In this document: piece after piece, positions 14,875-40,254 of the stretch
Layout: every line of letters starts with the position of its first letter
How positions within the stretch are numbered: position 1 is the first letter of the stretch
DNA from: Thermoplasmatota archaeon
GTDB lineage: Archaea > Thermoplasmatota > Thermoplasmata > Thermoplasmatales > Thermoplasmataceae
Assembly: GCA_023379825.1 (NCBI GenBank)
Contig: JAMCPQ010000012.1
Span: forward strand, 1 to 54,268
Direction of reading: 5' to 3'
Length of the DNA stretch: 54,268 nucleotides
The notes under the pieces: model-generated
The model's database searches: none
What the model saw: the letters and a program-made list of their open reading frames with translations, nothing else
What the model was told of the DNA's origin: nothing
Translations under genes and position numbers: made by a program

Positions 14875-16110
14875 ATGAAAAAACCACTTATGAAGGATAA
14901 ACAATTACAGTATGAGGAGTCATACTACATGTCTGAATCGGAAATTGAAAAAATAATGCCGGAGATACTGGATATTTCCGGTGAAATATACAGATTAGCA
15001 GAACTTGGAAGCTCAGAGTTAAAATCGTCACAGATTCTTGCAGATTACCTTGAAAAAAAAGGTTTCAAAGTAGAGAAACCATATGCCGGAATGAAAACTG
15101 CATTCAGGGCCACCAGAAACAGAGGCAACCCTTCTGTGGGATTCCTTGCAGAGTATGACGCACTTCCAAACGGACATGCATGCGGGCATAACCTGATTGC
15201 GGCCTGGGCAGTTGGCTGCGCTGTACTTCTTTCCCGCATGTCCGATGACATTTCCGTCACTGTTCTGGGAACACCTTCTGAGGAGGGAATAGGTGAATAT
15301 GCAGGGAGCAAGGCAATAATGGCTGACAGAGGATATGCTGATGGCGTTGACTTTTATTTTGGATTTCATCCAGATGATCAGTGGGGAGTTGGTTCTGGAG
15401 CTCTCGCTGATCTAACTCTTGATCTTGAATTCATCGGAAAGGCGGCTCATGGGGCTGATTCACCTGAACAGGGCGTTAACGCTCTGGACGCTGCCGTAAC
15501 AACATATATGGCAATAAACAATCTCAGGGGCTGGGCTAAAAATGACAGGCACCTTGTAATTGGCATGATAATTACACAGGGTGGAAAGGCTACAAATGTT
15601 ATTCCTGATGTGGCCGAGATTCAGGTGGAAATACGTTCAACCTCATCTGAATTTGTGGGGATATTTGCAGAAAAGGTTGAGCGAACTGCAAGATCAATAG
15701 CAGAATCCTATGGTGCCAGTCTTGAATGCAGGAGAATTACACCACTTTACAGGGACTACCTGCCCAACGTCAGACTTGACTCCATTCTATATGAGGAACT
15801 TCTTAAGGTCGGTTTAAAGCCCCACAATAACCATTCTTCCGAATACATTCCATCAGGAAGTACTGATGAGGCCAACATATCATGGGTTGCACCAACAGGG
15901 CATCTTGACATGCCCATAGGCTACAGAGGAATTTCAGGTCATTCAGAGGAATTCAGGCAGGCTGCGGAACCTTTCAGGAATGCGGAAAATCTGAGGATTG
16001 CCATCCTCGCTACTGTCAGGTCAGCTTTAAGCGCATCAAAGCATATCCAGGATATCAGAGATGAGTATCATGCACAGCGGAAACACAGAGGAGAATTACA
16101 GAGAGATTAA
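14875..16110 (+). CDS. M20 family amidohydrolase (AbgB/aminoacylase-like)
   Basis: A roughly 411-residue metallopeptidase-fold enzyme of the M20D group. The catalytic domain has EYDALPNGHACGHNLIA (metal-binding Cys/His) and PSEEGIGEYAGSK. The inserted dimerisation domain contains GKAAHGADSPEQGVNALDA and extends to about residue 310. It should remove an acyl or p-aminobenzoyl group from an amino acid or cleave a dipeptide. AbgB is the closest well-known relative by motif, but the substrate is not known. The frame is open from TTG 14863. I use ATG 14875, and ATG 14929 (MSESEIEK) is also possible. Its 3' end overlaps the S66 peptidase gene by about 50 bp, so the two are likely cotranslated. Confidence 0.85.
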   Translation: MKKPLMKDKQLQYEESYYMSESEIEKIMPEILDISGEIYRLAELGSSELKSSQILADYLEKKGFKVEKPYAGMKTAFRATRNRGNPSVGFLAEYDALPNGHACGHNLIAAWAVGCAVLLSRMSDDISVTVLGTPSEEGIGEYAGSKAIMADRGYADGVDFYFGFHPDDQWGVGSGALADLTLDLEFIGKAAHGADSPEQGVNALDAAVTTYMAINNLRGWAKNDRHLVIGMIITQGGKATNVIPDVAEIQVEIRSTSSEFVGIFAEKVERTARSIAESYGASLECRRITPLYRDYLPNVRLDSILYEELLKVGLKPHNNHSSEYIPSGSTDEANISWVAPTGHLDMPIGYRGISGHSEEFRQAAEPFRNAENLRIAILATVRSALSASKHIQDIRDEYHAQRKHRGELQRD

Positions 16111-17041
16111 GGATACAGTGAAACCCCCTTCACTGAAGCCGGGAGATGAGATCAGGATCATAGCTCCTGCAAGTGCTCCTGATATGAGGGCACTCTCCAG
16201 GAGCGTGTCAAGACTCACCAAATTAGGATATCGTATTTCACTTGGTAAAAATATAAGGAAACTTGTCCAGAGGAATTCTCTAGCCGCCCCTACCTCAGAA
16301 AGAGCTGCTGAACTTATGGATGCCTTCGCAGACGATTCTGTGAACGCAATTTTCTGTGCCAGGGGTGGATACGGTTCAATACATATACTCCCCATGCTTG
16401 ATTACGATGTTATCAGAGAGCACCCGAAAATTTTCGTGGGTTATAGTGACATCACCGCTCTTCACATGGCATTCAACAAACTTTCCGGACTTGTTACATT
16501 TCATGGCCCGATGCCAGCATCTGATCCAGAGGAGTATGGCAAGGCAACATTCAAGAAGTATCTGGATGTTCTTTCCGGAAACTCCACTGATCTCAAACAG
16601 TTCATTGACAATGTTGTGAAATACATCTTCAGGGGAAAGGTAGAGGGGAAGAGCACAGGCACGAACATATCAGTCTATTCTTCCCTTATTGGGACAAACT
16701 ATCTCCCATCCAGCGCCGGGAAGATATTTTTCATAGAGGATACTGGAATCACATCAGGTGATCTGGACAGATACTTTTCAGTGATGAAACTTTCCGGAAT
16801 TCTTGAAAGCTTTTCCGGATTCGCCTTTGGAGACTTCAAACAGATTGCAGAAGCAGAAGAGCCCATGCCATACATAGAAGACATTGTGCAGATGTACATC
16901 AATGAGATGCAGAAACCATCAGTTTACGGGCTTCCGTTCGGACACAATGTAGACAGCCAGATGCTCATACCATTGAACAGCAGAATGTCACTTTCCACAG
17001 AGGATCCTTACATAGAACTGCTGGAGAATATTGTGGACTGA
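16061..17041 (+). CDS. S66 family peptidase (LD-carboxypeptidase/MccF-like)
   Basis: A 326-residue serine peptidase. The N-terminal PPSLKPGDEIRIIAPAS and FCARGGYGSIH are typical for S66. The nucleophile is the Ser in FVGYSDITAL (S129), and the C-terminal domain carries the FIEDTG and YGLPFGHN motifs that supply Glu and His to the triad. Bacterial relatives cut the L,D bond of murein peptides, and MccF members inactivate microcin C. Thermoplasmatales lack murein, so salvage of environmental cell-wall peptides or immunity to a peptide-nucleotide antibiotic is more likely. ATG 16061 lies inside the M20 gene (50-bp overlap); ATG 16070 would remove three residues. The M20/S66 pair suggests peptide or amide degradation. 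Confidence 0.86.
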   Translation: MSIMHSGNTEENYREIKDTVKPPSLKPGDEIRIIAPASAPDMRALSRSVSRLTKLGYRISLGKNIRKLVQRNSLAAPTSERAAELMDAFADDSVNAIFCARGGYGSIHILPMLDYDVIREHPKIFVGYSDITALHMAFNKLSGLVTFHGPMPASDPEEYGKATFKKYLDVLSGNSTDLKQFIDNVVKYIFRGKVEGKSTGTNISVYSSLIGTNYLPSSAGKIFFIEDTGITSGDLDRYFSVMKLSGILESFSGFAFGDFKQIAEAEEPMPYIEDIVQMYINEMQKPSVYGLPFGHNVDSQMLIPLNSRMSLSTEDPYIELLENIVD

Positions 17042-28350: not shown

Positions 28351-30171
28351 TTACTCAGGCTTTTCAGATGATATCACAGGGATTGGCTCATCCAGATTTA
28401 TCCCGATCTCATCTTCTCTGAGTTTTCTTCCTATGCTCTGCTCATAGAAGGCTATGATTCTTCTCTTGTCTTCCTTTGTGTAATCTCTGAAGTATTTATC
28501 CTTCTTGAGTACCTTTCCTGTTCTCTCCTCGTATGTTCTGGCAGGAATTGAGTATTTTCTCTGAGTAGCATCCCTGTAGAGCTCCGGGATAACGTTGAAG
28601 GCACAGAATGGAACCACTCTTCCGTCAGGCATTGCATAGTGGATATCGCATCTCTCGACCCTGTCCACATCGTAGGTGTATGGGTCCATGAAGTGCATGA
28701 ATCCTATGAACATGCTCTTGTAGTGGAATGCCTTGAGACCGTGGTAATCACCCTCAGTAAAAGCATTGTATACCATATCCTTCAGTTTGAAGTCTTTTGG
28801 AGCTTTGTCATAGTCGACAAACTTCCCAATCTTCATCAGAAGCTTCGGTACAGTTATTGCCTTGCTGATTCTCTTGAAGTTAGAGTTCTTTATCTCATCA
28901 GCCAGTTCTCCAATGTATTCAAACATCCCAGGAACGTCTATGAATCTTGTTATGGGTGTTACCTTGTCTCCTTCCTTGAAAAGGTAAGTTCCCATTCCAC
29001 AGGCGAAGTGGATTGAGAGTTTGTACATCTCCTTTCCCTTAAGCTGCTCAACGAAGTCAGAGACTTTTGCGGTTGATGGTACGGTAAAGAAGTCTTCCCT
29101 ACCAATCATTCCGTCTGTCTGCTGTTCTATCTTCTTTATACAGCCAGGAATGGTGACTCTCTGCTTCTCCCTCATTCTGTCAGGCATTCTGCCTACCAGA
29201 CTTACAGGCTGGAAGTTTACGGCCCTTACAACATCGATGTTTGAAAGACCGAATCTTATCATATCACCAAGGTACAGGTCGTTTACACCACCTATTACGG
29301 TTGGAACCAGAACAACACCAAGAGGCGCCTTCTTGTAATTTTCAAGAGCTGCTGGTATTTCCCAGAAGTTCTTTGGATTGGATCTTGGGGTAGGCCCATC
29401 GAAACTTGTGTAAATGACATTTGAACCTGCTTCTCTTATCTTCTTTGGGAAGTCCGGGTCGAAGGCGGACCTGATACTGTTTGTGTTAAGCTGGATATGT
29501 TCATATCCCTCTTCTCTGGCTATTTTTATGATGTCAATGATGTCATCCCTTATGGCTGGCTCTCCACCTGTTATCTGAACCGCATTTGCACCAACAGGTT
29601 TCTCGTTCCTCATTCTTCTGAGCATCATTCTGACCTGGTCCTGTGTTGGCTCATATATTGGCTCATTCTCCTTTGCATAGAAGAAGCAGTACCAGCAGGA
29701 AAGGTCGCAGCGGTTTGTAACTACGACATTGCCAAGACCAGTGTGGGATTTGTGCTTCACACAAAGACCGCAGTGTGTCGGGCAAACGATTTTCGATTCA
29801 AGGTATGCAACGTGAGGATTGAGAATTTTTACTCCCGGGTCAAGCCATTTTTTGGCCTCCTGGTACATTTCGTAATCTTCCCAGTATTTTTCCTTTGTAA
29901 CTCCGTGTTCCGAGCACTCCTTTATGAGTTTGACTTCACCGGCATTCTCGTACACTACTGCAGGTATCCTCATCTGGTCAAATTTTTCGTCATCAACACA
30001 GATCGGGCAGAGACTCTCTGTTACTCTTATAACCATCATGTCGGGGGTTATAAGGTGACCCATCGTGCTGACAAACTCGTCCACCGTCTTAAACGGGGCA
30101 TTTTTGCTAATCTCGAAATCATTGGCGAATCTGATTTCGGGATACCTGTTTCTTTCTTCAGACACTATCAT
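28351..30171 (-). CDS. tes: Radical SAM tetraether lipid synthase (Tes/MJ0619 family)
   Basis: A 606-residue radical SAM protein. The [4Fe-4S]-SAM motif is CDLSCWYC with Cys at 155, 159 and 162, and it is preceded by CPTHCGLC and an N-terminal CPIC, which can hold extra Fe-S clusters. ITGGEPAIRDD is the SAM-binding GGE motif. The C-terminal part has CGMGTY and RCDIHYAMPDGRVVPFCAFN, typical of the MJ0619-like group. Members of this group (Tes) join two archaeol chains through C-C bonds to form GDGT tetraether lipids, the major membrane lipid in Thermoplasmatales. It heads a minus-strand run with archease, pdaD and leuS. A clear SD (AGGTGA) lies 8 nt before the ATG, so this gene has a leader. 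Confidence 0.88.
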   Translation of the reverse strand: MIVSEERNRYPEIRFANDFEISKNAPFKTVDEFVSTMGHLITPDMMVIRVTESLCPICVDDEKFDQMRIPAVVYENAGEVKLIKECSEHGVTKEKYWEDYEMYQEAKKWLDPGVKILNPHVAYLESKIVCPTHCGLCVKHKSHTGLGNVVVTNRCDLSCWYCFFYAKENEPIYEPTQDQVRMMLRRMRNEKPVGANAVQITGGEPAIRDDIIDIIKIAREEGYEHIQLNTNSIRSAFDPDFPKKIREAGSNVIYTSFDGPTPRSNPKNFWEIPAALENYKKAPLGVVLVPTVIGGVNDLYLGDMIRFGLSNIDVVRAVNFQPVSLVGRMPDRMREKQRVTIPGCIKKIEQQTDGMIGREDFFTVPSTAKVSDFVEQLKGKEMYKLSIHFACGMGTYLFKEGDKVTPITRFIDVPGMFEYIGELADEIKNSNFKRISKAITVPKLLMKIGKFVDYDKAPKDFKLKDMVYNAFTEGDYHGLKAFHYKSMFIGFMHFMDPYTYDVDRVERCDIHYAMPDGRVVPFCAFNVIPELYRDATQRKYSIPARTYEERTGKVLKKDKYFRDYTKEDKRRIIAFYEQSIGRKLREDEIGINLDEPIPVISSEKPE

Positions 30172-30534: not shown

Positions 30535-30607
30535 GCGGGTGTGGTGTAGCCTGGTAACACGCGAGCTTGCCAAGCTCGTGCCTCGGGTCCAAATCCCGGC
30601 ACCCGCA
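30535..30607 (+). tRNA. tRNA-Gly (anticodon GCC)
   Basis: The acceptor stem GCGGGTG pairs with CACCCGC and is followed by discriminator A. The anticodon stem CGAGC/GCTCG closes the loop TTGCCAA, giving GCC (codons GGC/GGU, Gly). The T arm reads CGGGTCCAAATCCCG. There is no intron and no encoded CCA. Confidence 0.97.
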
Positions 30608-30979
30608 TCTGAACCAAGAAATGAGACTTCTGATGGACTATATTTTATGAATTGGCATAGAGGTTCATTTTTCAGGCGATTTTTGAAGGTCTTAATTTTC
30701 CTCACTCATCCATCGCTATTTCTCGCTTTCTAATCTTAATGGCATAATTGTTTAGATTGAACAGTCAAATGAAATTACTATATTATAAATTATAAAATTC
30801 TTAACTTTACCCAGAGAATAATTTTCAATTGGAAAAGGGAGATTCGCCATTGACTTATTTCCCATCGCAGGTTGTCATACAATAGATGAATTCATCAACA
30901 GAGAGTAAAAAGTTAGGAATATTTCAGTAGATATAGTGAAATAATTATATTTAAATATTTAGATTGTGTACATATCCTT
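30608..30979. other. Intergenic stretch downstream of tRNA-Gly
   Basis: No gene is supported here; a 68-codon frame overlapping the tRNA is chance. The right end holds a TATA-like TTATATTTAAAT (about 30945-30956) near -28 of the next gene. Confidence 0.5.
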
Positions 30980-31435
30980 GTGTCTACTAAAAAAAGAACT
31001 GGGTTTAGATTTGCAGGTTTAATCTTTTTATTGGTTTTCATAGTGACATTTACCATACTATTTACGGATAAAAACCTTCAAACCGATTTTGGAACAACCA
31101 AACCATATTTTATACACTGGTATGGACTCCTTATCACGGGACTGATTTCTCTTATAGGTGGAATTATAATTCTAGCGAAACCAGACAGGAGTATGTTCAA
31201 AATTGGAGCTGTGGGGTCTATCCTTCTTGCTCTTTTTCTTGTGGCAGATATAGCAACATACAGTGAGGTCGGATTTTCAAGCCCCATTAAATTTGCCACT
31301 TATCTGTTTGGTGTATCTAAGTACCCGGGAAGCCTGAGCTATATTCCGGGTTTATATGATGTACTTTTCGCCCTCTACATAATTACGTTCGCAATATGCC
31401 TAAAGGGGTTATCTTACTTTACGGATTCCAAGTAG
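30980..31435 (+). CDS. Uncharacterised four-helix membrane protein
   Basis: A 151-residue protein with four predicted membrane helices (about 10-28, 48-66, 76-95 and 125-145) joined by short loops; the loop after helix 3 (about 96-122) is the longest. I do not recognise a characterised family. It starts with GTG at 30980, placed by the TATA-like box about 28 nt upstream, and ends 7 bp before the Egghead-like glycosyltransferase gene, so the two are probably one transcript. A role as partner or lipid-handling subunit of that enzyme is possible but only inferred from position. Confidence 0.75.
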   Translation: MSTKKRTGFRFAGLIFLLVFIVTFTILFTDKNLQTDFGTTKPYFIHWYGLLITGLISLIGGIIILAKPDRSMFKIGAVGSILLALFLVADIATYSEVGFSSPIKFATYLFGVSKYPGSLSYIPGLYDVLFALYIITFAICLKGLSYFTDSK

Positions 31436-31442
31436 GCAAGCA

Positions 31443-32828
31443 ATGATTGGCCAGATCTTTAGAAACAAGAGTGAAAATAACCTTGGTCTAAATATTCTCA
31501 ATCTGGCTGTCATTTATTTTATTATAATGATTCTGCTTTTTCTCATTGTTAAAAATACAGACCATCATCCCTTCAATTTATACATAAGTATTCTCTGGTC
31601 ACTCTATACACCTGTTACAATTATCGGGATCCTTGGAACTATAAAGTCCAGAAAGTTGAGCTCCTCTAAAATCGAAGACAAAACTGAACATAAACTGTAC
31701 ATCACGATACCTACTGTTGCGACGGACAATGTATTGCCTGCCTTAAGGCGTGTATTAGATTCCATATACAATTACACCCCTGATTTTTTTCAGAATTTTA
31801 GTGTAGATTTGGTAATAGATGAGGGTTCATCAGGAGAGGGAAAACTCAGACAATTTGTTGCGGGAAAGAATAATGCAAGGATAATAGTTGTTCCCTCAGA
31901 TTTTCAGTGTCAAAATGGAGCCATAGCAAAGGCCAGGGCCCTGGAATATTCTGTAATTTATAGAAGAAATTTAGGAGAAACTTCGGCAGATGAGTTTGTC
32001 TACCATCTTGACGATGATACTTCCGTAACAAGAGAGACCATTTCTTCACTGGCTGGCTTCATTAACACCAGATCGGATAAATATGATCTTGCGCAGGGAA
32101 TTCTGACTTTTCCCCATGAATTCTGTAAATCCGGAATTAGCAGAATAGCAGATTCGGTAAGGCCTTCTGACGACCTCACAAGGTTTTTCTTCTTCACCGG
32201 TACCTTACACATCCCTTTGGCGGGCCTTCATGGAGAGCATCTTCTGGTTAGAGCAAACGTGGAAGATTCCATAGGATGGGATTTTGGGCCAACCAAGGTT
32301 GAAGACTCGGCCTTTGGCCTTGAATTCGCAAAGCAATTTGGGCGAAGAAGTTACTTTCTGAATTCCAGGGTAAAAGGCTCCAGCCCCCAGAGTTTGAAGG
32401 ATCTGATAAGGCAGAGGAGAAGATGGTATTCTGGAATCATTTCTCTTGCATTCAGTAGAAGAAACAGGAACCTTGCAAGAATACCATTGATGATCTATGC
32501 GCTGATCACCATGTTCAGTCCAATGCAGTACATACTGGTAGTTTTTCTTATTTCTTTAATAATCTCCACTCCTGCCTTTCCTGTATCTTTTCTATTCCTG
32601 CCCCTTTGGGGCATCAACTTTTCATATCAGTTGTGGCTTTATGAGGAAGGTTATAACATAAACAGCGAAAGTTCCTCCGGAAAAAAGGTTGGCCGTTCCT
32701 GGATGAGATTCCTGATCATGCCGTTAATATATGTATCAGGGTCTATCGAAGCGACTGCTGTAGCATTGGGCTTCATAGACTATCTGAAAAAGGACAACTC
32801 ATTTCAGGTTATTGAGAAACCCATTTGA
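31443..32828 (+). CDS. Membrane glycosyltransferase family 2, Egghead/BRE-3-like
   Basis: A 461-residue GT2 enzyme. Two N-terminal helices (about 18-38 and 45-64) anchor a cytosolic GT-A domain. Key motifs are HLDDDTS (D190-D192, nucleotide-sugar and metal binding), the acceptor-side VEDSAFG (E287-D288), and QRRRW at 324-328 as in processive or lipid-acceptor GT2s. Two or three C-terminal helices follow. The order QGILTF, ADSVRPSDD, HGEHLLVR, WDFGPTKVEDS and SPQSLKDLIRQRRRW resembles animal Egghead/BRE-3, which adds beta-1,4-mannose to glucosylceramide. I infer a mannosyl- or hexosyltransferase acting on a lipid-linked sugar. It follows a small membrane protein gene by 7 bp. Confidence 0.85.
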   Translation: MIGQIFRNKSENNLGLNILNLAVIYFIIMILLFLIVKNTDHHPFNLYISILWSLYTPVTIIGILGTIKSRKLSSSKIEDKTEHKLYITIPTVATDNVLPALRRVLDSIYNYTPDFFQNFSVDLVIDEGSSGEGKLRQFVAGKNNARIIVVPSDFQCQNGAIAKARALEYSVIYRRNLGETSADEFVYHLDDDTSVTRETISSLAGFINTRSDKYDLAQGILTFPHEFCKSGISRIADSVRPSDDLTRFFFFTGTLHIPLAGLHGEHLLVRANVEDSIGWDFGPTKVEDSAFGLEFAKQFGRRSYFLNSRVKGSSPQSLKDLIRQRRRWYSGIISLAFSRRNRNLARIPLMIYALITMFSPMQYILVVFLISLIISTPAFPVSFLFLPLWGINFSYQLWLYEEGYNINSESSSGKKVGRSWMRFLIMPLIYVSGSIEATAVALGFIDYLKKDNSFQVIEKPI

Positions 32829-33082
32829 ACAGGAAGTAAATGAGAATCTCACAGAGCTTCAAGGGACTTTTGCAATATTTCCATTTTCACTTCACATCGA
32901 AAAGCAGAGAATTCTCTCAATTTGATTTTATCATGATGACTTCTCAAATTTATATTCAGAAGAATTACAGATTTTCTCTATGAAATATTCGTATAGTAAT
33001 GTTATTAAACAATAGATTACATGTTAACAATACTCACATGCTAGACAAAATCTGACAAATTTCGTTTGAGAGGTCATTTCCT

Positions 33083-33721
33083 ATGTGGAGAAGATATACC
33101 TACTCGGATAATGTTAACGATAAGATAAGGAGAGGAAAGGAATTTTCCGAAAAGTTGTGGAATTCCCACATTGAATTCATCGGTATTTCCGGTTCAGTTT
33201 CCTACAACCCTCAGCCGGAGGATGATATAGATATATTCCTTATCACCAAAAATGGATGGTTGTGGGTTGAAATACTTTGGGCATTTATTCTGCGAAGAAT
33301 GATGGGGATGGGGGATATCTGCCTTTCCCTTTCTGTTGACAGGAAAGGTGCATTGAAGCTTTTCAGAAATCTCAGCTCACTGCAGGAGAAAGATGCAGAG
33401 CATGTTATACCTGTCAGAGGAAATGAATTCTACAACACTCTACTCCTTGAAACGGACCCGGGAAAAAGCAAAAACAGAAATGAAACCTCTCTTGATCATA
33501 TCGGTCAGAAATCGGAATTCACTTTCATGGAAATTGCTAACATTTTCCTCTTTTTTCTTCTTTATCCCCTTCAGAAATTGAAGGAGATCAGGTTCAATTC
33601 TATACACATATCCAAGGAACCTGAACTTGTATATCACATACTCATTGGTCCTAACAGGCTTATACTGGATTCTGAAAAGTACAGAACCCTTTCTGAATAT
33701 GTGGGGAATTATAATGACTAG
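33083..33721 (+). CDS. Nucleotidyltransferase-fold protein in the glycan cluster
   Basis: A 212-residue protein. Residues 32-52 read FIGISGSVSYNPQPEDDIDIF, with the GS (G37-S38) and DxD (D48, D50) pattern of the DNA polymerase beta-like nucleotidyltransferase superfamily. A third acidic residue of the site is not obvious to me. Around residues 56-70 and 145-165 are hydrophobic stretches (WLWVEILWAFILRR, IANIFLFFLLYPLQ) that could touch the membrane. Related small proteins occur beside glycosyltransferases in other archaea, but their reaction is not known. Its stop overlaps the start of the next GT2 gene by 8 nt, which implies coupled translation and a shared task. There is a 254-bp gap upstream. 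Confidence 0.75.
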   Translation: MWRRYTYSDNVNDKIRRGKEFSEKLWNSHIEFIGISGSVSYNPQPEDDIDIFLITKNGWLWVEILWAFILRRMMGMGDICLSLSVDRKGALKLFRNLSSLQEKDAEHVIPVRGNEFYNTLLLETDPGKSKNRNETSLDHIGQKSEFTFMEIANIFLFFLLYPLQKLKEIRFNSIHISKEPELVYHILIGPNRLILDSEKYRTLSEYVGNYND

Positions 33722-34595
33722 CACTGCAGTAATCTTTATCTACGGAAGCCAGAAGGACTTGGATGAGGCAATTAAAAATTCAAAATCGCTGCCTTTTGAT
33801 GAAATCCTGATTGCTGCCGGGGGAGAACTGAATTTTCCGGACCCAGATAAAATGAAAGCCCTTCCGAAGGTCAGAATTTTCAAAGAGGAACAGAGGCTTG
33901 GTAAAACTGTTGCTTATAACAGAGTCATCAGACAAATTAAAGGAAGCACAGTTTTTCTCATTTCAGGAGACGTGAGATATGAACCGAATATGCCATTGAA
34001 ACTTATGGAAAATCTGGATCCGGATGCTGGAATGGTCATTCCGAGAATCATTCCCGAGAGAAATGATAAACTCTCAGGCAGGGTTGGAAATATCATATGG
34101 ATGGCACATAGCCTTTACAATTCTGTAAGATTCGAAAGTAAATCATTCTTCTGCGGAGGTGAATTCCAGATGCTGGTTGGTACTCCTCCAGCCATTCCAG
34201 AGAACATCATAAATGATGATGAATATCTTGGAAACCTTGTTTTTTCATCCGGGAAGAAAATTATTTACAGAAATGATCTGATAGTGAAAAACAGGGTTCC
34301 GGATAATTTCATAAATCTTCTTCGACAGAGGATAAGAGTTAATTACGGACACATGCAGTGTTTGAAAATCCTTGGAAAAACATCTTCTTTCAGCATTGGT
34401 TTCATCAGTAACCTGAAAATGTCATTAAATATACTCAGAAAACTCATTGATGGTGATATAGTGGAAACATACACTCTCTTCCTGGCAGTTTTAATAGAGT
34501 TGACCAGCCTTGTCATTTCCAGAATGAATTACCTGCTTAAGGTGGATATGACTAAATGGAAATTGGTTAGTCCTGATGCAGGGGGCTTAAAGTAA
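33714..34595 (+). CDS. Glycosyltransferase family 2
   Basis: A 293-residue GT-A-type glycosyltransferase. The N-terminal Rossmann-like part begins AVIFIYGSQKDLDEAIKNS. The donor-site region reads TVFLISGDVRYEP, with the GD forming the reduced DxD position, and the acceptor loop lies around FFCGGEFQMLVG and NDDEYLG. A C-terminal stretch (about 245-275) is hydrophobic and may sit at the membrane. An open frame extends 29 codons further up into the previous gene. The ATG at 33714 is chosen because it gives the usual strand-start for the family and an 8-nt overlap with the preceding stop. The sugar and acceptor are unknown. Confidence 0.82.
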   Translation: MTSTAVIFIYGSQKDLDEAIKNSKSLPFDEILIAAGGELNFPDPDKMKALPKVRIFKEEQRLGKTVAYNRVIRQIKGSTVFLISGDVRYEPNMPLKLMENLDPDAGMVIPRIIPERNDKLSGRVGNIIWMAHSLYNSVRFESKSFFCGGEFQMLVGTPPAIPENIINDDEYLGNLVFSSGKKIIYRNDLIVKNRVPDNFINLLRQRIRVNYGHMQCLKILGKTSSFSIGFISNLKMSLNILRKLIDGDIVETYTLFLAVLIELTSLVISRMNYLLKVDMTKWKLVSPDAGGLK

Positions 34596-34618
34596 ATAGG
34601 TACAATAAAGGGTTTTTG

Positions 34619-36424
34619 TCAGAGGTCATTTACACCTCTCGGAATATTTGATGAGGTTTCTTCTAAGTTGGACCTCCTTTTCAGAATTACAAGCTCTTTG
34701 GAAATCAGGTAAAGAAAAAGTGCATTTGTTCCGAATATTATGAAGTAAAGGATCGTCTTTCCTGAAATTGAAGAGAAGAGAAAGTTTTGGGCCTGACCAA
34801 AAATGGAAGACAGGTAGTTGTATGAAATATCAGGATTCAAAAAGAAAGCAAGTGTGGAGCTCATCGAAACATATGCAACCGCAACTGCAGAAAGTGCCAG
34901 AACTTCACGCACTTTTCCAAGTGCCAGATACAGAACTATTGGATAAATCAGGTACTGTGGATTGACTATATTGTAAGTAAGGAAAAATATTAGAAATGAT
35001 ATAATAACAAATTGCTCCAGTCCCCTGCCAGTTTTCCAGTATATCGCTATAAGCAAAAAGTAAACCGGCACGAAGACATAGAGGAAAAGGGAGGGGAAAT
35101 TACTGATCCTGAGTGTATCTATCAGAATTTCCCAGGATAGCCCGTTGACAAAGAAAACGCCATTGAAAGTCGGAGATGTCCTTGAATAAATAAGCGTACC
35201 AATATTCTCGTTAAAATTACCCACTGTATAATATAAAAGTAATGTAACCAGAAGCATAATTGCTACAATCATAATGTCACGAAAACGGTGCCTGCTTGAC
35301 AGCAGAATAAATGGAATGAGGAGAACCGGGAATATCTTGATCATGGCTCCCAGTGAGGCCATCAAAACCGAAGAACCCGTCTGACCTTTACGGAAAAGAA
35401 ATATTGACAGGAGCATGCAGAATGCTGCCACAGCATCTATCTGCCCCCAGGCTATTCCTATGAGAATCACGGCAGGGTTCAAAAGCCAGAGACCAAAAAG
35501 TCGGTTTTTCAATGGACTGAGTTTTCTAAGCAATGCATATATTCCGAACACAGAAATAACCATGGGAACCTTAATTGCGGCATAGAAAATGTAAAATGAA
35601 ATCTCCTTCAACCCCTTCCACGCAGAGTAAAGGTTCCCATAGAGAACTCCGATGTAATTCAGAGACTGGTTGGAAGGTATAGCGGAAGTATTGAATGCAT
35701 AGATAAGGCGCCCAACAAGTTCACTGTAGTATGGGAATAGAGGAGGATAGGCCCACTTCAGTGGACCTGGAAGATTTACTGAGCGTATGTAAGGGTCCAC
35801 CCCATGAATCAGTCTGAGCCCTGATGATATCATAAAGAAAAGATCGTACCTCTGGCCCATCACAACAGATACTGCTGAGTAAAGTATGGCAACAGGAACA
35901 AGCAATATCCTGTTCGATGTGGCAGCTGTGTAAGCCCCAAAAAATAGTAAAACTAGGGAGGAGTAGAACATAAAATCAAGTGCATAAGGAAGATAAGATC
36001 TTGTGACAGTCAATTGAATGTATGAGGTGTACTCATTGCCAATCACAACCCTGAGGCTGATATCCCTGTTTTTGATATATATGGAAGACAGATCCAGTGA
36101 GAACTGGTAATATTTATTTCCATGAACAGTTGTGCTGAAAACACTTGTCTGAGCAGCACCCGCCGGGTTAATTGCAAACACATCCAGAGTGTAATTGGTG
36201 GAAACCGGCGAGTCGATCTGGAACTTTATTTCGCCGGTTTCTTTCTGGAAATATCCTGTGGTTATATTATGCGGGTAGACTTTGATTGTGTAAACTCCAA
36301 TGCTTGTCTGAGAAGTGTTTGAGTAACCGGGTTGATGTGAATAGTATGCAGGAATTGAAATCAGAACCATGGCTAAGAGGATGACAAATAGTGAGATCTT
36401 CCAGTCCACTTTCAGGATCTGCAC
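34619..36424 (-). CDS. GT-C type membrane glycosyltransferase (DUF2029/GT87-like)
   Basis: A 601-residue membrane protein. One N-terminal helix is followed by a beta-rich, outward-facing domain (about 30-150), then about 10-11 helices. The catalytic loop after the next helices contains GVDPYIRSVNLPGPLKWAYPP, with the Asp and YPP of DUF2029/GT87 polyprenyl-phosphate-sugar-using enzymes. Later signatures are AWGQIDAVAAF and AMIKIFPVLLIPF. Such enzymes move mannose or another hexose from dolichyl phosphate onto a lipid, glycan or protein on the outer face. The extra N-terminal domain is unusual for GT87 and could bind the acceptor. It points against the other genes of the cluster and converges on the GT2 gene with 23 bp between stops. 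Confidence 0.82.
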   Translation of the reverse strand: MQILKVDWKISLFVILLAMVLISIPAYYSHQPGYSNTSQTSIGVYTIKVYPHNITTGYFQKETGEIKFQIDSPVSTNYTLDVFAINPAGAAQTSVFSTTVHGNKYYQFSLDLSSIYIKNRDISLRVVIGNEYTSYIQLTVTRSYLPYALDFMFYSSLVLLFFGAYTAATSNRILLVPVAILYSAVSVVMGQRYDLFFMISSGLRLIHGVDPYIRSVNLPGPLKWAYPPLFPYYSELVGRLIYAFNTSAIPSNQSLNYIGVLYGNLYSAWKGLKEISFYIFYAAIKVPMVISVFGIYALLRKLSPLKNRLFGLWLLNPAVILIGIAWGQIDAVAAFCMLLSIFLFRKGQTGSSVLMASLGAMIKIFPVLLIPFILLSSRHRFRDIMIVAIMLLVTLLLYYTVGNFNENIGTLIYSRTSPTFNGVFFVNGLSWEILIDTLRISNFPSLFLYVFVPVYFLLIAIYWKTGRGLEQFVIISFLIFFLTYNIVNPQYLIYPIVLYLALGKVREVLALSAVAVAYVSMSSTLAFFLNPDISYNYLSSIFGQAQNFLFSSISGKTILYFIIFGTNALFLYLISKELVILKRRSNLEETSSNIPRGVNDL

Positions 36425-36557
36425 CCCCTCTCACTGCCATGGAATCCCCCATCAACTGGATTGCCCTGGAGAAGGTAAAAATAGTATTCAACAGAATACA
36501 TGACAGTTACTGTCAAGTATTCACAAAGTAGATATAATAATATTTCCTTTTAATGAT

Positions 36558-37322
36558 ATGCAAAACGATAATTTTCAGCTGCCCGATATACTTATCAGGA
36601 CATTCAATTCTGCCGATACACTGGAAAGCTGCCTGAGTTCCATAAAAAAACTTGTTCCTCACAATAATATCATTATCGCAGATCACAACAGCACGGACAG
36701 AACTCTGGAGATAGCAAGATCCTTTGGCGCTGAAATCCACTCTGAAGAGGTGGGACTTGGATTTGCCACAAATATTCTGATTAAGTCATCCAGATCAGAA
36801 TATGTTCTTTTTGTGGATGGGGATATTGAAGTTATACGCAATGATTTTGTCTCTATTGCCTTATTGGAACTATCGGAACACTCAGTTGGTGCAGTGGTTG
36901 GATGCGGGAAAAACCATGATTTCCTTTACGGACTTCCTTTAGGGCTAACAATGTTCAGGAGGAGGGACATCATAGATGCCAGGATCCCTGACGTCATACA
37001 GGGAAGAGAGACCTATTATCTCCAGGAATGCCTGAGACATAAATCTCTGAAGGTTAAATACGTGAGAGATGCAATGATTCACAGATCGACATATAGAAAA
37101 TACAGGTACTGGCCTGAATGGCAGGGCGCTCAGATAAGAATAACACCGGGTAGACACCTCCATCAACTGGTCTTTGCTATTCCCATTATATTCATGATGC
37201 ACCTCAATAGCAGGAGTGTGAGAAACTATCTTTACTCGCCAGTATTCTATTTTAAGCTCCTGAAGGGGTATGTGAATCCTGAAAAATTCAAGTCTTTCGA
37301 CAGACGAAATTTTTCAGGGTGA
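36558..37322 (+). CDS. Glycosyltransferase family 2
   Basis: A 254-residue GT2 enzyme. The N-terminus DILIRTFNSADTLESCLSSI and IIADHNSTDRTLEIA are the nucleotide-binding start of GT-A folds. The DxD motif is VDGDIEV near residues 93-99, and MFRRRDI...QGRETYYLQECLRH forms the acceptor side. The C-terminal 60 residues are basic with a short hydrophobic stretch (FAIPIIFMMHL), suggesting a membrane-surface enzyme without full helices. It is divergent from the GT-C gene (133 bp between starts) and begins a plus-strand run with the next two genes. Confidence 0.86.
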   Translation: MQNDNFQLPDILIRTFNSADTLESCLSSIKKLVPHNNIIIADHNSTDRTLEIARSFGAEIHSEEVGLGFATNILIKSSRSEYVLFVDGDIEVIRNDFVSIALLELSEHSVGAVVGCGKNHDFLYGLPLGLTMFRRRDIIDARIPDVIQGRETYYLQECLRHKSLKVKYVRDAMIHRSTYRKYRYWPEWQGAQIRITPGRHLHQLVFAIPIIFMMHLNSRSVRNYLYSPVFYFKLLKGYVNPEKFKSFDRRNFSG

Positions 37323-37355
37323 TTGAGCTCGAAAAATGAAAATAGTTCAGCTCAT

Positions 37356-37361
37356 GGAGGT
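37356..37361 (+). promoter_or_regulatory. Ribosome binding site deciding the start of the small protein gene
   Basis: GGAGGT lies 10 nt before ATG 37372, favouring this start over the in-frame ATG 37336 and ATG 37354. Confidence 0.5.
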
Positions 37362-37371
37362 AAAATATATT

Positions 37372-37611
37372 ATGAAAATCTATTCTGAGCGTTTTCCTCT
37401 CAAATACCTGATCTCTGATCACGGCATATGCCTCGGCTTTGATACTAAAAAGAGATCCTTTCTTTTCCTGATTTCAGGCAAGGGCATGCTATTTAAGATT
37501 CGTCCAGCTGGAGACACTATTGTAGAAATGCTGGACTATGAAATTCCGGAAATACAAAGGGCACTTATGGAGGAGAGGAAGGCCCCCATTAAGAGAAAGG
37601 ATGGGAAATAA
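37372..37611 (+). CDS. Small uncharacterised protein in the glycan cluster
   Basis: A 79-residue protein I do not recognise. It has short beta-like segments (LISDHGICLGFD, SFLFLISGKGMLFKI) and a basic C-terminus (RKAPIKRKDGK). There is a weak resemblance to PqqD-type peptide-binding folds, too weak to claim. The SD at 37356-37361 points to ATG 37372. Its stop codon shares a base with the start of the split-barrel/methyltransferase gene, so the two are translationally coupled, which supports coding. Confidence 0.62.
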   Translation: MKIYSERFPLKYLISDHGICLGFDTKKRSFLFLISGKGMLFKIRPAGDTIVEMLDYEIPEIQRALMEERKAPIKRKDGK

Positions 37612-38771
37612 TGAATGCGAAAGGTGAGGGCCTGATTGAAAGCCATGATCATCTTTCTGTGATCCTGGGAAAAGAGAGAGTGGATCTTGCGTTCGGCTCT
37701 GAAGATAATTGGCTCTATCTGATTTCTACTGGTTCAGACGCAAGGTGGCCCTCTCAACTGTTACGAACAGGCATTGTTTCTCTTAGGATTCATGGAAATA
37801 CAGTCAAAGGTTATGCATCACTCATAACTTCAGAAAATGAGAAGAGGAGAGTCAGGGAAATATTCTTAGAAAAATATGGCAGTTCTTATTTCAATAGGTA
37901 TTTTACAAATCCCGGGAGATATCTCCGCGTAAATATATCTGAGGATTCCCAGTACAGGCCAAAGACCTATTATGAATGGCTTCAGGAAGAATTTGATGCT
38001 GAATCTGCAAATTATGATCAGCACATATACGGAAACAGGATAAACAGACTTCTGAGAGAGCGCTCGCTGGAAACTATTTTCAGGTTTTTGAAGCCACCTG
38101 CCTCTGTTCTTGAGATAGGGTGCGGATCGGGAACTGAGACTCTGGAGGTCCTGAAGAATGGAAACAGGGTCACTGCAATAGATGTCTCCGAGGGAATGCT
38201 TTCTATTGTCAGAGAGAAAGCAAACGAATTTTTACTGAATGATAACCTCACCACTATGAAACTCAGGGCATCCCAAATCTCTGAGGTCCTGGATCGCTTT
38301 GGTCCCGAAAGCTTTGATCTGGTATATTCTACGTTCGGTGCTCTTAACTGTGAACCTGACATAGAACTTATCCCGCCAGTTTTGGAGAAACTTCTTAAAA
38401 AGGGCGGCCATTTTATCGCTGGAGTTTACAACAAGTTTTGTATTTCAGAGCTTGTGATCCAGTTTTGCCTTCTTCGCATTGGTAGTCTTTCCTGGAGATT
38501 CAAAAACCCAATACCAGAAGGGCATTCAAGATTCTGTGTTGACGTTTATTCTTTCACTCCAGGAGAATTTAACTCACTGTTCAGGAAATATCTGAGGATG
38601 GTTTCCCTTACCGGAGTTCCCGTTCTGATACCTCCCTCTAATTTCAGGAGATTCATAAGCATTACAGGAGAAAAATTTGACTCCATCAACAGAATAGACA
38701 GGAAGCTCGCCGGCATCTGGCCATTGAATCGTCTGGGTGACCATTTTCTGGCCGTATATAAAAAAGTTTGA
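37611..38771 (+). CDS. Split beta-barrel (flavin/F420-binding-like) domain fused to a class I methyltransferase
   Basis: A 386-residue fusion. Residues about 10-112 resemble the flavin/F420-binding split beta-barrel of DUF385/PNPOx-like proteins: NWLYLISTGSDARWPSQL, then VSLRIHGNTVKGYASLI and REIFLEKYG. Residues about 125-386 are a SAM-dependent methyltransferase with motif I VLEIGCGSGTETLEVL, the acidic strand AIDVSEGM, and FDLVYSTFGALNC as motif IV. The last 90 residues form a variable substrate domain. A redox cofactor domain joined to a methyltransferase is not a standard architecture. The barrel may instead serve as a substrate-binding module. The gene begins at the stop of the preceding small gene and ends at a strong hairpin. 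Confidence 0.78.
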   Translation: MNAKGEGLIESHDHLSVILGKERVDLAFGSEDNWLYLISTGSDARWPSQLLRTGIVSLRIHGNTVKGYASLITSENEKRRVREIFLEKYGSSYFNRYFTNPGRYLRVNISEDSQYRPKTYYEWLQEEFDAESANYDQHIYGNRINRLLRERSLETIFRFLKPPASVLEIGCGSGTETLEVLKNGNRVTAIDVSEGMLSIVREKANEFLLNDNLTTMKLRASQISEVLDRFGPESFDLVYSTFGALNCEPDIELIPPVLEKLLKKGGHFIAGVYNKFCISELVIQFCLLRIGSLSWRFKNPIPEGHSRFCVDVYSFTPGEFNSLFRKYLRMVSLTGVPVLIPPSNFRRFISITGEKFDSINRIDRKLAGIWPLNRLGDHFLAVYKKV

Positions 38772-38793
38772 AGTTATCTTTCTTTATGGTAAT

Positions 38794-38817
38794 CCTTTCA
38801 TGGATTTCCATGAAAGG
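38794..38817. terminator. Perfect hairpin between the two convergent methyltransferase genes
   Basis: CCTTTCATGG (38794-38803) and CCATGAAAGG (38808-38817) form a perfect 10-bp stem with an ATTT loop. It lies 22 bp after the plus-strand stop and covers the last codons of the minus-strand gene. A bidirectional terminator is the simplest role. Confidence 0.65.
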
Positions 38818-39688
38818 TAACTATTCCTTTTTCATTTAACAGAACAGAGCCACATTGTATGCATTTAACAGCGCAACTTTCAGCAGGCACAGAATTAAAT
38901 GGTGTCCCGCAAACTTCACAGGAAAATGGAGATTGAAATTCTATCACAGGCTCTGAGGAATTTTTCTGAAATCTTGCAAAAATGTGGGGAAGTATACTGA
39001 AATGTACGGTGAATTTCTCCAGCATCCTTATGGTTGAGATAGGCAGATATTTGAATGGCTTATAGTCTCCCAATCCTGTACTTACAGTTCCGGTCATGAG
39101 GAGAGAACAGGATTCCCCTGCTTTCTTTATCACCATCTTTCTGTAAAAGAATTCTTCAAAACCTGACCTGTAGACTCTTGACATTCCAGCTCCGGGAAAG
39201 CGATCTCCGTTTCCTAACGCTGTGGATGAATAGAACCTGTCAAGCAGATACGCAATTGATGGATAATGATAAAAGCTGACAATAAGCAGACCACCATTCT
39301 TCAGATACTCTGTCAGAATTCTTATAGAATTCTGGGCATCCTTGAGAAAATTCAATACCCTGATCATCAGTATGAGATCAAAATAACCTTTTGTGAATGG
39401 CATGGAATGAAGGTCTGCGTGTACCGTAACTATACCGGGATCAGAAAGATGGACCCTTTCAAGAAACCGAGTTTCCAGATCCACAGCGAATCTATTCTCT
39501 GATACACTTCTTAGTCCTTCCTGAATTCTGCCTGCACCAACACCAACTTCAAGCACCCTTTTAAATTTCCTTCCAGCAATCAGGTCAAGTATAACTGACT
39601 TCTCGATTTCCGATACTTTATCACGTCCCTTCCAGAGTGAGTCGAAATCCAGGAGAGAAAAGTCATTAGGCATCCGTAAATTGATCAC
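38798..39688 (-). CDS. Class I methyltransferase with C-terminal zinc ribbon
   Basis: A 296-residue protein. Residues about 35-165 form a SAM-binding domain: VLEVGVGAGRIQEGL (motif I), FAVDLETRFL (acidic loop) and FDLILMIRVLNFLKD (motif IV). The C-terminal 40 residues hold two Cys pairs, CEVCG and CIQCG, a zinc ribbon that probably binds the substrate or a partner. It resembles the UbiE/COQ5-like group in its core but the ribbon is unusual there. The substrate is unknown; placement suggests a glycan, lipid or small-molecule target. Its 3' end overlaps the hairpin at 38794-38817. Confidence 0.82.
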   Translation of the reverse strand: MINLRMPNDFSLLDFDSLWKGRDKVSEIEKSVILDLIAGRKFKRVLEVGVGAGRIQEGLRSVSENRFAVDLETRFLERVHLSDPGIVTVHADLHSMPFTKGYFDLILMIRVLNFLKDAQNSIRILTEYLKNGGLLIVSFYHYPSIAYLLDRFYSSTALGNGDRFPGAGMSRVYRSGFEEFFYRKMVIKKAGESCSLLMTGTVSTGLGDYKPFKYLPISTIRMLEKFTVHFSILPHIFARFQKNSSEPVIEFQSPFSCEVCGTPFNSVPAESCAVKCIQCGSVLLNEKGIVTFHGNP

Positions 39689-39922
39689 TAAGGATCATAA
39701 TATATGCACCGCTTATGCCATTGAATCTGTATTTGACCATCACTGAAACCCTTAGGGAACTGAAGTTTCTTACTCAGAACAACAAATATGATATATTCCT
39801 GCCCGTTCATTTCAAAGGGCTGAATCAACTGGAACATTGCTTGATTCATTCAATATCTAATATTCAGTTATGGAGAGAAATACTTCATCTGAAGAAAAAT
39901 TAAGTGAAAAATGTTATGGACA

Positions 39923-39951: not shown

Positions 39952-40254
39952 ATGTCAGATGAGTCCAAAGGTAGATCAATTATAAAGATAAGACCATTGT
40001 GGGGTGCATTAACTGCGGTATTCCTCGGGCTCACAGGATTTTCACTTTTCAGGGCATTTGGCTATTCTGGCGACATAAGCACCTATTCAACAGAGTTCCA
40101 GTCACTGAATACGGTCAATGCAACTTACAATACAACAAGAAGCATGCTTCTGAGATTTGACACACTGCAGCTGGGCTGGGCACTGACCGGCGTTGTGGCA
40201 ATATGCCTGGTTGTACTTTGCCTTGTAGTCCTTCTGTTTTTCAGCAAACAATAA
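39952..40254 (+). CDS. Small two-helix membrane protein
   Basis: A 100-residue protein with two predicted membrane helices (about 17-34 and 75-97) and a polar, Asn/Thr/Ser-rich loop between them (about 36-72) with possible N-glycosylation sites (NAT, NTT), which would face outside. I do not recognise the family. A TATA-like box at the right distance, SD-free start and strong hydrophobic patterning support coding. It converges with the aldehyde dehydrogenase gene, 26 bp apart, over an A/T-rich spacer. Confidence 0.68.
   Translation: MSDESKGRSIIKIRPLWGALTAVFLGLTGFSLFRAFGYSGDISTYSTEFQSLNTVNATYNTTRSMLLRFDTLQLGWALTGVVAICLVVLCLVVLLFFSKQ

Follow-up and report, generated by a model that had tools for sequence, protein, structure and literature searches.

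The block of nine genes (g1–g9) at positions 30980–39688 of the window, i.e., the whole analyzed stretch of 54,268 nucleotides from contig C12 of the Thermoplasmatales metagenome-assembled genome (MAG) G000, represents a real, previously undescribed, modular glycan locus. Our best explanation is that the locus directs the biosynthesis of an O-methylated cell-surface glycan in Thermoplasmata and that it is modular and in part exchangeable; we assign this explanation a probability of roughly 0.6. The acceptor of the glycan may be either a lipid of the tetraether type or the dolichol-linked precursor of an N-glycan. No description of the locus, or of its pair of a nucleotidyltransferase (NTase) and a family 2 glycosyltransferase (GT2), was found in open-access papers. 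A first-pass annotation had suggested a glycolipid or lipoglycan assembly locus at this site. All open reading frames (ORFs) that it had named were present at their coordinates, and g1 and g7, which it had not stressed, also turned out to be members of the conserved set. The source genome is an incomplete assembly (1.25 Mb, 82% complete), most of the genomes used for comparison are MAGs, the ORFs were called by script, and the enzyme families are broad.

Six block proteins were searched against 61 genomes, and 34 regions were retrieved. Eight families (g1, g3, g4, g5, g6, g7, g8, and g9) were found to be linked in about 25 Thermoplasmatales genomes, with shuffled order and orientation. The distances between the NTase gene (g3) and its partners were quantified for those NTase-bearing genomes that also have the respective partner gene. 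A partner was located within 10 kb in 19 of 21 cases for the g4 family (GT2b), in 25 of 25 for the methyltransferase, in 13 of 17 for the g6 family (GT2c), and in 8 of 9 for the GT87 enzyme, compared with a chance expectation of about 1% per gene. These co-localization counts refute the view that unrelated glycosyltransferase and methyltransferase genes without a common pathway are neighbors by chance. Genes for GT2 enzymes and methyltransferases are abundant, and the shuffled order and the use of both strands in the block would be in line with such a chance neighborhood, but the eight families recur across genera and across families of the class, and four of them (g1, g3, g7, and the N-terminus of g8) have no confident Pfam name in the source genome. 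This alternative is therefore regarded as extremely improbable. The synteny comparison that had been proposed as a check was thus performed, and scattering of the genes in relatives is excluded.

A scan with one genome per species extended the carriers to many uncultured Thermoplasmatales, to E-plasma, I-plasma, and ASS_A1, and to Thermogymnomonas acidicola, an isolate. The loci of family f7 of the class have a guanine-plus-cytosine (GC) content of 65–71%; several of them contain four to eight of the gene families within a stretch of about 13 kb, and g1 alone was found in others. Outside the class, the NTase and GT2b genes adjoin each other in Marsarchaeota G2, and a Nitrososphaeria MAG has them at a distance of about 3 kb, which argues for an old NTase–GT2 pair. 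NTase relatives in Microgenomates lie beside other genes and lack the rest of the set, so that they are uninformative. In summary, the eight families form a linked unit that consists of a core (g1, g3, and g4) and interchangeable decorating modules.

The loci fall into two types by their decorating genes. In type A loci, g7 is accompanied by a split-barrel g8 and mostly also by g6. Type B loci contain two shorter methyltransferases without the barrel and usually another GT2, and g7 is missing from all of them. The barrel and g7 occur together in 16 of 18 loci; of the remaining two, one is truncated at a contig end. In one genus, the loci of G005 (type B) and G023 (type A) adjoin the same QPRT gene, and a sister relationship of the two NTases has 100/99 support. 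In this pair, the core was kept and the decorating set was changed. A second case was found in another genus, with shared flanks for G056 (type B) and G042, G045, and G048 (type A).

The sister genome G001 showed a further rearrangement. Comparison of its region L026 (9540–19037) with window positions 30608–39908 revealed that the g1–g9 block is inverted between tRNA-Gly/Tes on one side and g10/ALDH on the other. The left border is the tRNA-Gly(GCC) gene (30535–30607, plus strand), the only RNA element found, and the sister genome has the same border gene. The right border is g10 (39952–40254, plus strand), which encodes a protein of 100 amino acids with a single transmembrane (TM) segment and is 88% identical in the sister genome. 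Protein identity between the two genomes is 53–74% in the block and 72–100% in the flanks, and the GC content of the block is 39.8%, compared with 43.4% for the rest. Flanking inverted repeats were considered as an inversion device and rejected, as only weak pairs were present, at the level expected by chance. Constant flanks around a content that is swapped are characteristic of variable surface-glycan loci. With the same flanks, different content, and a higher divergence than the flanks, the block behaves like such a locus.

Two further observations concern the composition of individual loci. In one type B genus (L034:9282–11601, L042, and L044), the locus contains a gene of the flavin mononucleotide-dependent dehydrogenase family, perhaps a type 2 isopentenyl diphosphate isomerase, as well as an amino-acid-kinase family gene, perhaps an isopentenyl phosphate kinase, and a ZPR1-like gene. 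The locus of T. acidicola (L105:9857–13162, core and module A) has intact NTase and g7 genes, and the frames of GT2b, GT2c, and g8 are broken, probably by sequencing errors in this draft genome.

Next, the individual proteins were characterized. The glycosyltransferase, methyltransferase, and NTase motifs are retained across the relatives. The core gene g3 (33083–33721, plus strand) encodes a protein with a pol-beta-type nucleotidyltransferase fold and a GS(x)8DDID motif. On its own, g3 remained below the Pfam threshold (Polbeta, E 0.17), and distant relatives matched Polbeta/NTP_transf_2 with E values of 3e-4 to 1e-3 over a GS...DD(I/V)D motif. The AlphaFold model of g3 has a predicted local distance difference test (pLDDT) score of 89.5, and its top PDB matches were MNT, ANT(4''), and KNTase (probability 1.00, E 5e-3 to 1e-2), the first structures being MNT AMPylating antitoxins and kanamycin NTases. 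In the hG[GS]...DhD motif, G37, D47, D48, and D50 are invariant across 60 relatives, and S38 is conserved in at least 90%. Strand 79–86 contains the invariant C80 and no invariant acid, and D104 is invariant within Thermoplasmata only. A LicD-type transferase was rejected for g3, as LicD appeared neither in Pfam nor among the listed PDB hits, and a phage origin was rejected because the NTase had no phage match.

The partner of g3 in the core is g4 (33714–34595, plus strand), a GT2 (PF00535, 35.9 bits) with the motifs SGD, NDDE, and QRxR. The start codon of g4 and the stop codon of g3 lie in an 8-bp overlap, and the two genes are linked across relatives, in accordance with the earlier claim of an NTase-fold protein coupled to a GT2. 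The third core gene, g1 (30980–31435, plus strand), encodes a 4-TM protein of 151 amino acids of an unnamed family, which occurs together with the NTase in about 20 loci and additionally in family f7 of the class. Its invariant residues are D30, N32, D36, HWYG46-49, D90, Y94, Y108, Y121, P123, and G124. An Lgt-like function, considered on the basis of an IHWYGL motif, was rejected, as it found no support in Pfam, NCBIfam, or the PDB.

Three GT2 enzymes, one of them membrane-bound, had been predicted for the block, and Pfam confirmed g2, g4, and g6. One of them, g2 (31443–32828, plus strand), an Egghead/cellulose-synthase-like membrane GT2 (PF13632, 70.9 bits), lies outside the conserved set. 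Its relatives in other genera occupy unrelated neighborhoods or a different conserved one, and g2 was thus rejected as a core gene and is an addition in the source genus. For g5 (34619–36424, minus strand), the assignment as a GT87-like GT-C glycosyltransferase held, with 27.3 bits for PF09594 at a cut-off of 25. Like mycobacterial PimE of the lipomannan branch, g5 is a GT87 enzyme by Pfam. Unlike PimE, it has an N-terminal domain of about 140 amino acids, located between hydrophobic segments 1 and 2, and a sequence search of the PDB with g5 gave no match.

Module A consists of g6, g7, and g8. The soluble GT2c enzyme is encoded by g6 (36558–37322, plus strand; PF00535, 54.4 bits). The protein of about 79 amino acids encoded by g7 (37372–37611, plus strand) belongs to an unnamed, strongly conserved family with the motifs KIYSE, KYL, GxCxGxD, and GDxxVE, for which no match was found in Pfam, NCBIfam, or the PDB. 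The stop codon of g7 and the start codon of g8 overlap by 1 bp. In g8 (37611–38771, plus strand), a split-barrel-like N-terminus (about 14–108) is predicted to precede a class I S-adenosylmethionine-dependent methyltransferase, and g9 (38798–39688, minus strand) is a class I methyltransferase with a zinc-ribbon-like C-terminal CxxC...CxxC tail. Both methyltransferase domains match PF08241/PF13649, and the fusion and the second methyltransferase are therefore present as proposed, with the split barrel being a prediction from the topology of the model. The AlphaFold model of g8 (pLDDT 88) comprises a small mixed barrel at 14–108, followed by the methyltransferase, and the strand order of the N-terminus, read by eye (four strands, a helix, two strands, two helices, a strand), fits a split barrel. 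The structural matches listed for g8 all cover the methyltransferase, and none among those listed is a direct split-barrel match. A DUF2255 match of the N-terminus was obtained for one relative only and was below the cut-off (E 2.6e-4, 21.7 bits).

The nearest solved relatives of the g8 methyltransferase are TM1389 and CmoM, and a relative of ubiquinone/menaquinone methylases is among the nearest solved methyltransferases. Together with the fusion to a split-barrel-like domain, this would fit a pathway to a small molecule or membrane cofactor that carries methyl groups (a quinone, a pterin, or a secondary metabolite), in which the split barrel would be a deazaflavin or flavin reductase. Such a pathway is not in keeping with the three glycosyltransferases of the conserved set, which include a GT-C enzyme, or with the exchange of modules between close relatives, and no linked quinone or pterin genes were found, so that we consider it unlikely.

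NTase and methyltransferase relatives were also observed outside this group. Many g3 relatives in Microgenomates (L107–L139) have an extra winged-helix-like N-terminal region, and the Microgenomates relatives adjoin WecG/TagA-like glycosyltransferases or sugar-binding-like proteins. In a Thermoflexus MAG (Chloroflexota; L111:2976–7094), the genes for a winged-helix NTase, a B12-binding radical SAM protein, a methyltransferase that scores 115 bits to g8, and a second methyltransferase lie in a row. This arrangement may be related to the locus as a bacterial counterpart.

Based on the family assignments, the following pathway can be envisaged for the O-methylated surface glycan. The cytosolic enzymes g4 and g6 would transfer sugars from activated donors onto a lipid-anchored acceptor at the cytosolic face of the membrane, and g8 and g9 would methylate the sugars. 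The GT-C enzyme g5 is predicted to use a polyprenyl-phosphate donor and would add a sugar at the outer face. The membrane protein g1 may hold or present the acceptor within the membrane. Because g7 and g8 are almost always found together, the small protein g7 may assist g8. The NTase g3 may transfer a nucleotidyl group and thereby prepare a substrate for g4 or regulate g4. A more specific version, in which g3 is active together with g4 and either adds AMP or another nucleoside monophosphate to the growing glycan or nucleotidylates the glycosyltransferase itself, would lead to a nucleotidyl-modified or nucleotidyl-controlled methylated glycan. We know of no precedent for such a route to an archaeal surface glycan, and we regard it as a rather doubtful possibility.

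Several points weigh against the proposed glycan locus. No flippase, polymerase, or export gene was detected among g1–g9 with Pfam and NCBIfam, with g1 being unassigned, and the block also has no sugar-nucleotide or anchor-attaching gene, so that formation of the product must depend on genes located elsewhere. None of the block enzymes has a characterized close relative, and the majority were assigned only to a broad family. Instead of a sugar, the substrate of the methyltransferases could be a lipid, a quinone, or a protein. The evidence for the inversion in G001 comes from a single MAG contig, whose end lies within Tes. Lastly, the third catalytic carboxylate expected in an active NTase is not obvious in g3, so that a regulatory or altered role of this protein is possible.

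Two narrower versions complete the proposed glycan locus by specifying the anchor, and their confidences overlap with that of the locus itself. The first is the assembly of a tetraether lipoglycan or glycolipid, in which the sugar chain is built directly on glycerol dialkyl glycerol tetraether (GDGT). The GT87 enzyme, the membrane glycosyltransferases, and the 4-TM protein would suit a lipid acceptor. The surfaces of Thermoplasmatales are described as tetraether lipoglycan, and the lipoglycan described from this group combines glucose and mannose with a tetraether (PMC12448462). In the source genus, the gene for Tes, the GDGT/macrocyclic archaeol synthase (28351–30171, minus strand), adjoins the block across the tRNA gene, as had been annotated, and it matches the solved GDGT/macrocyclic archaeol synthase 7TOL with an E value of 3e-118. 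This adjacency was rejected as a functional clue. A Tes-like match is present in every relative examined, but G000 and G001 are the only genomes in which Tes adjoins the block, and it is unlinked in all other genera, and the neighborhood is thus genus-specific. As a separate observation, the Tes stretch (window 28351–30171 versus L026 19474–19998) has 100% protein identity to the sister species over 175 amino acids, compared with 72–95% for other neighbors.

The lipoglycan of Thermoplasma also did not prove to be a suitable model. T. acidophilum belongs to the same archaeal family, has tetraether membranes, and lacks a wall, but its genome (G151, recognized by its proteasome beta subunit, which over 181 residues shows no difference from PDB 1PMA, the T. 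acidophilum proteasome) has no g1 and g3 matches, and neither have its genus-mates G006, G024, and G206. The source of the known lipoglycan thus lacks the core, and the characterized lipoglycan does not require the block. The glycolipids of Oxyplasma, which may or may not carry the locus, contain only 1–3 hexoses (PMC11349054). Therefore, the part of the first-pass reading that placed these genes together in a glycoconjugate-assembly locus was borne out, but its argument from the tetraether lipoglycan was not. An analogous lipoglycan in the locus-bearing species is possible, and we hold direct assembly on tetraether lipid to be a tentative option.

The second version, a species-specific N-glycan elaboration, is marginally better placed, though still tentative. 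The block would build and methylate a dolichol-linked oligosaccharide, and the unlinked STT3 would transfer it to archaellins, pilins, and surface proteins. The block has no oligosaccharyltransferase, as had been noted, and the STT3 gene of the genome is located on another contig (G000:C1:3965). STT3 (PF02516) was detected in 54 of the 61 genomes, namely in 27 of 27 NTase-bearing genomes and 27 of 34 others (Fisher p 0.012, uncorrected for phylogeny). This association is weak, and absences are unreliable because PF02516 misses some enzymes. The best PDB matches of the g4 profile were 6yv7–6yv9 (E 6e-6), which we take to be an archaeal N-glycan mannosyltransferase. Genome G012, presumably of Cuniculiplasma divulgatum, had no PF02516 match, which points to a divergent oligosaccharyltransferase or a blind spot of the model. 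The pilins of C. divulgatum carry N-glycans, and the filaments of Thermoplasmatales are heavily N-glycosylated (PMC12448462). Against this version, T. acidophilum has an N-glycan without having the locus.

The glycan locus was also compared with known systems. In common with variable surface-glycan loci (O-antigen, capsule, and archaeal agl islands), it is rich in glycosyltransferases, contains methyltransferases, has the same flanks with different content in congeners, diverges faster than its flanks, and has a lower GC content. Unlike these loci, it has no flippase, polymerase, sugar-nucleotide, or oligosaccharyltransferase genes, and it has the NTase–GT2 pair and two conserved unnamed families (g1 and g7). 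Archaeal agl clusters likewise combine GT2 enzymes with a methyltransferase, and AglP is a methyltransferase that acts on the oligosaccharide. In contrast to them, AglB/STT3 is not linked to the block, and none of the named agl models matched a block protein above the cut-off, in agreement with the earlier statement that the block does not resemble a standard agl cluster. MNT antitoxins and the ANT(4'') kanamycin nucleotidyltransferase share the fold and the GS...DxD motif with g3, but the genetic link of g3 is to a GT2 rather than to HEPN or to a drug substrate. The other window genes that were scanned are housekeeping, transport, or peptidase genes. A gene of the LD-carboxypeptidase family (Peptidase_S66), here in an archaeon, is located at 16061–17041 and adjoins M20 peptidase and periplasmic-binding-protein genes.

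Taken together, the results define a set of eight families and a switch of modules between close relatives. Acidophiles without a wall or an S-layer face pH 0–3 with a glycan coat, and very few of the genes for its biosynthesis are known. The unnamed families g1 and g7 and the NTase–GT2 pair are now tied to a likely pathway. With T. acidicola as a cultured carrier and Thermoplasma species as natural non-carriers, the locus and the glycan can be matched.

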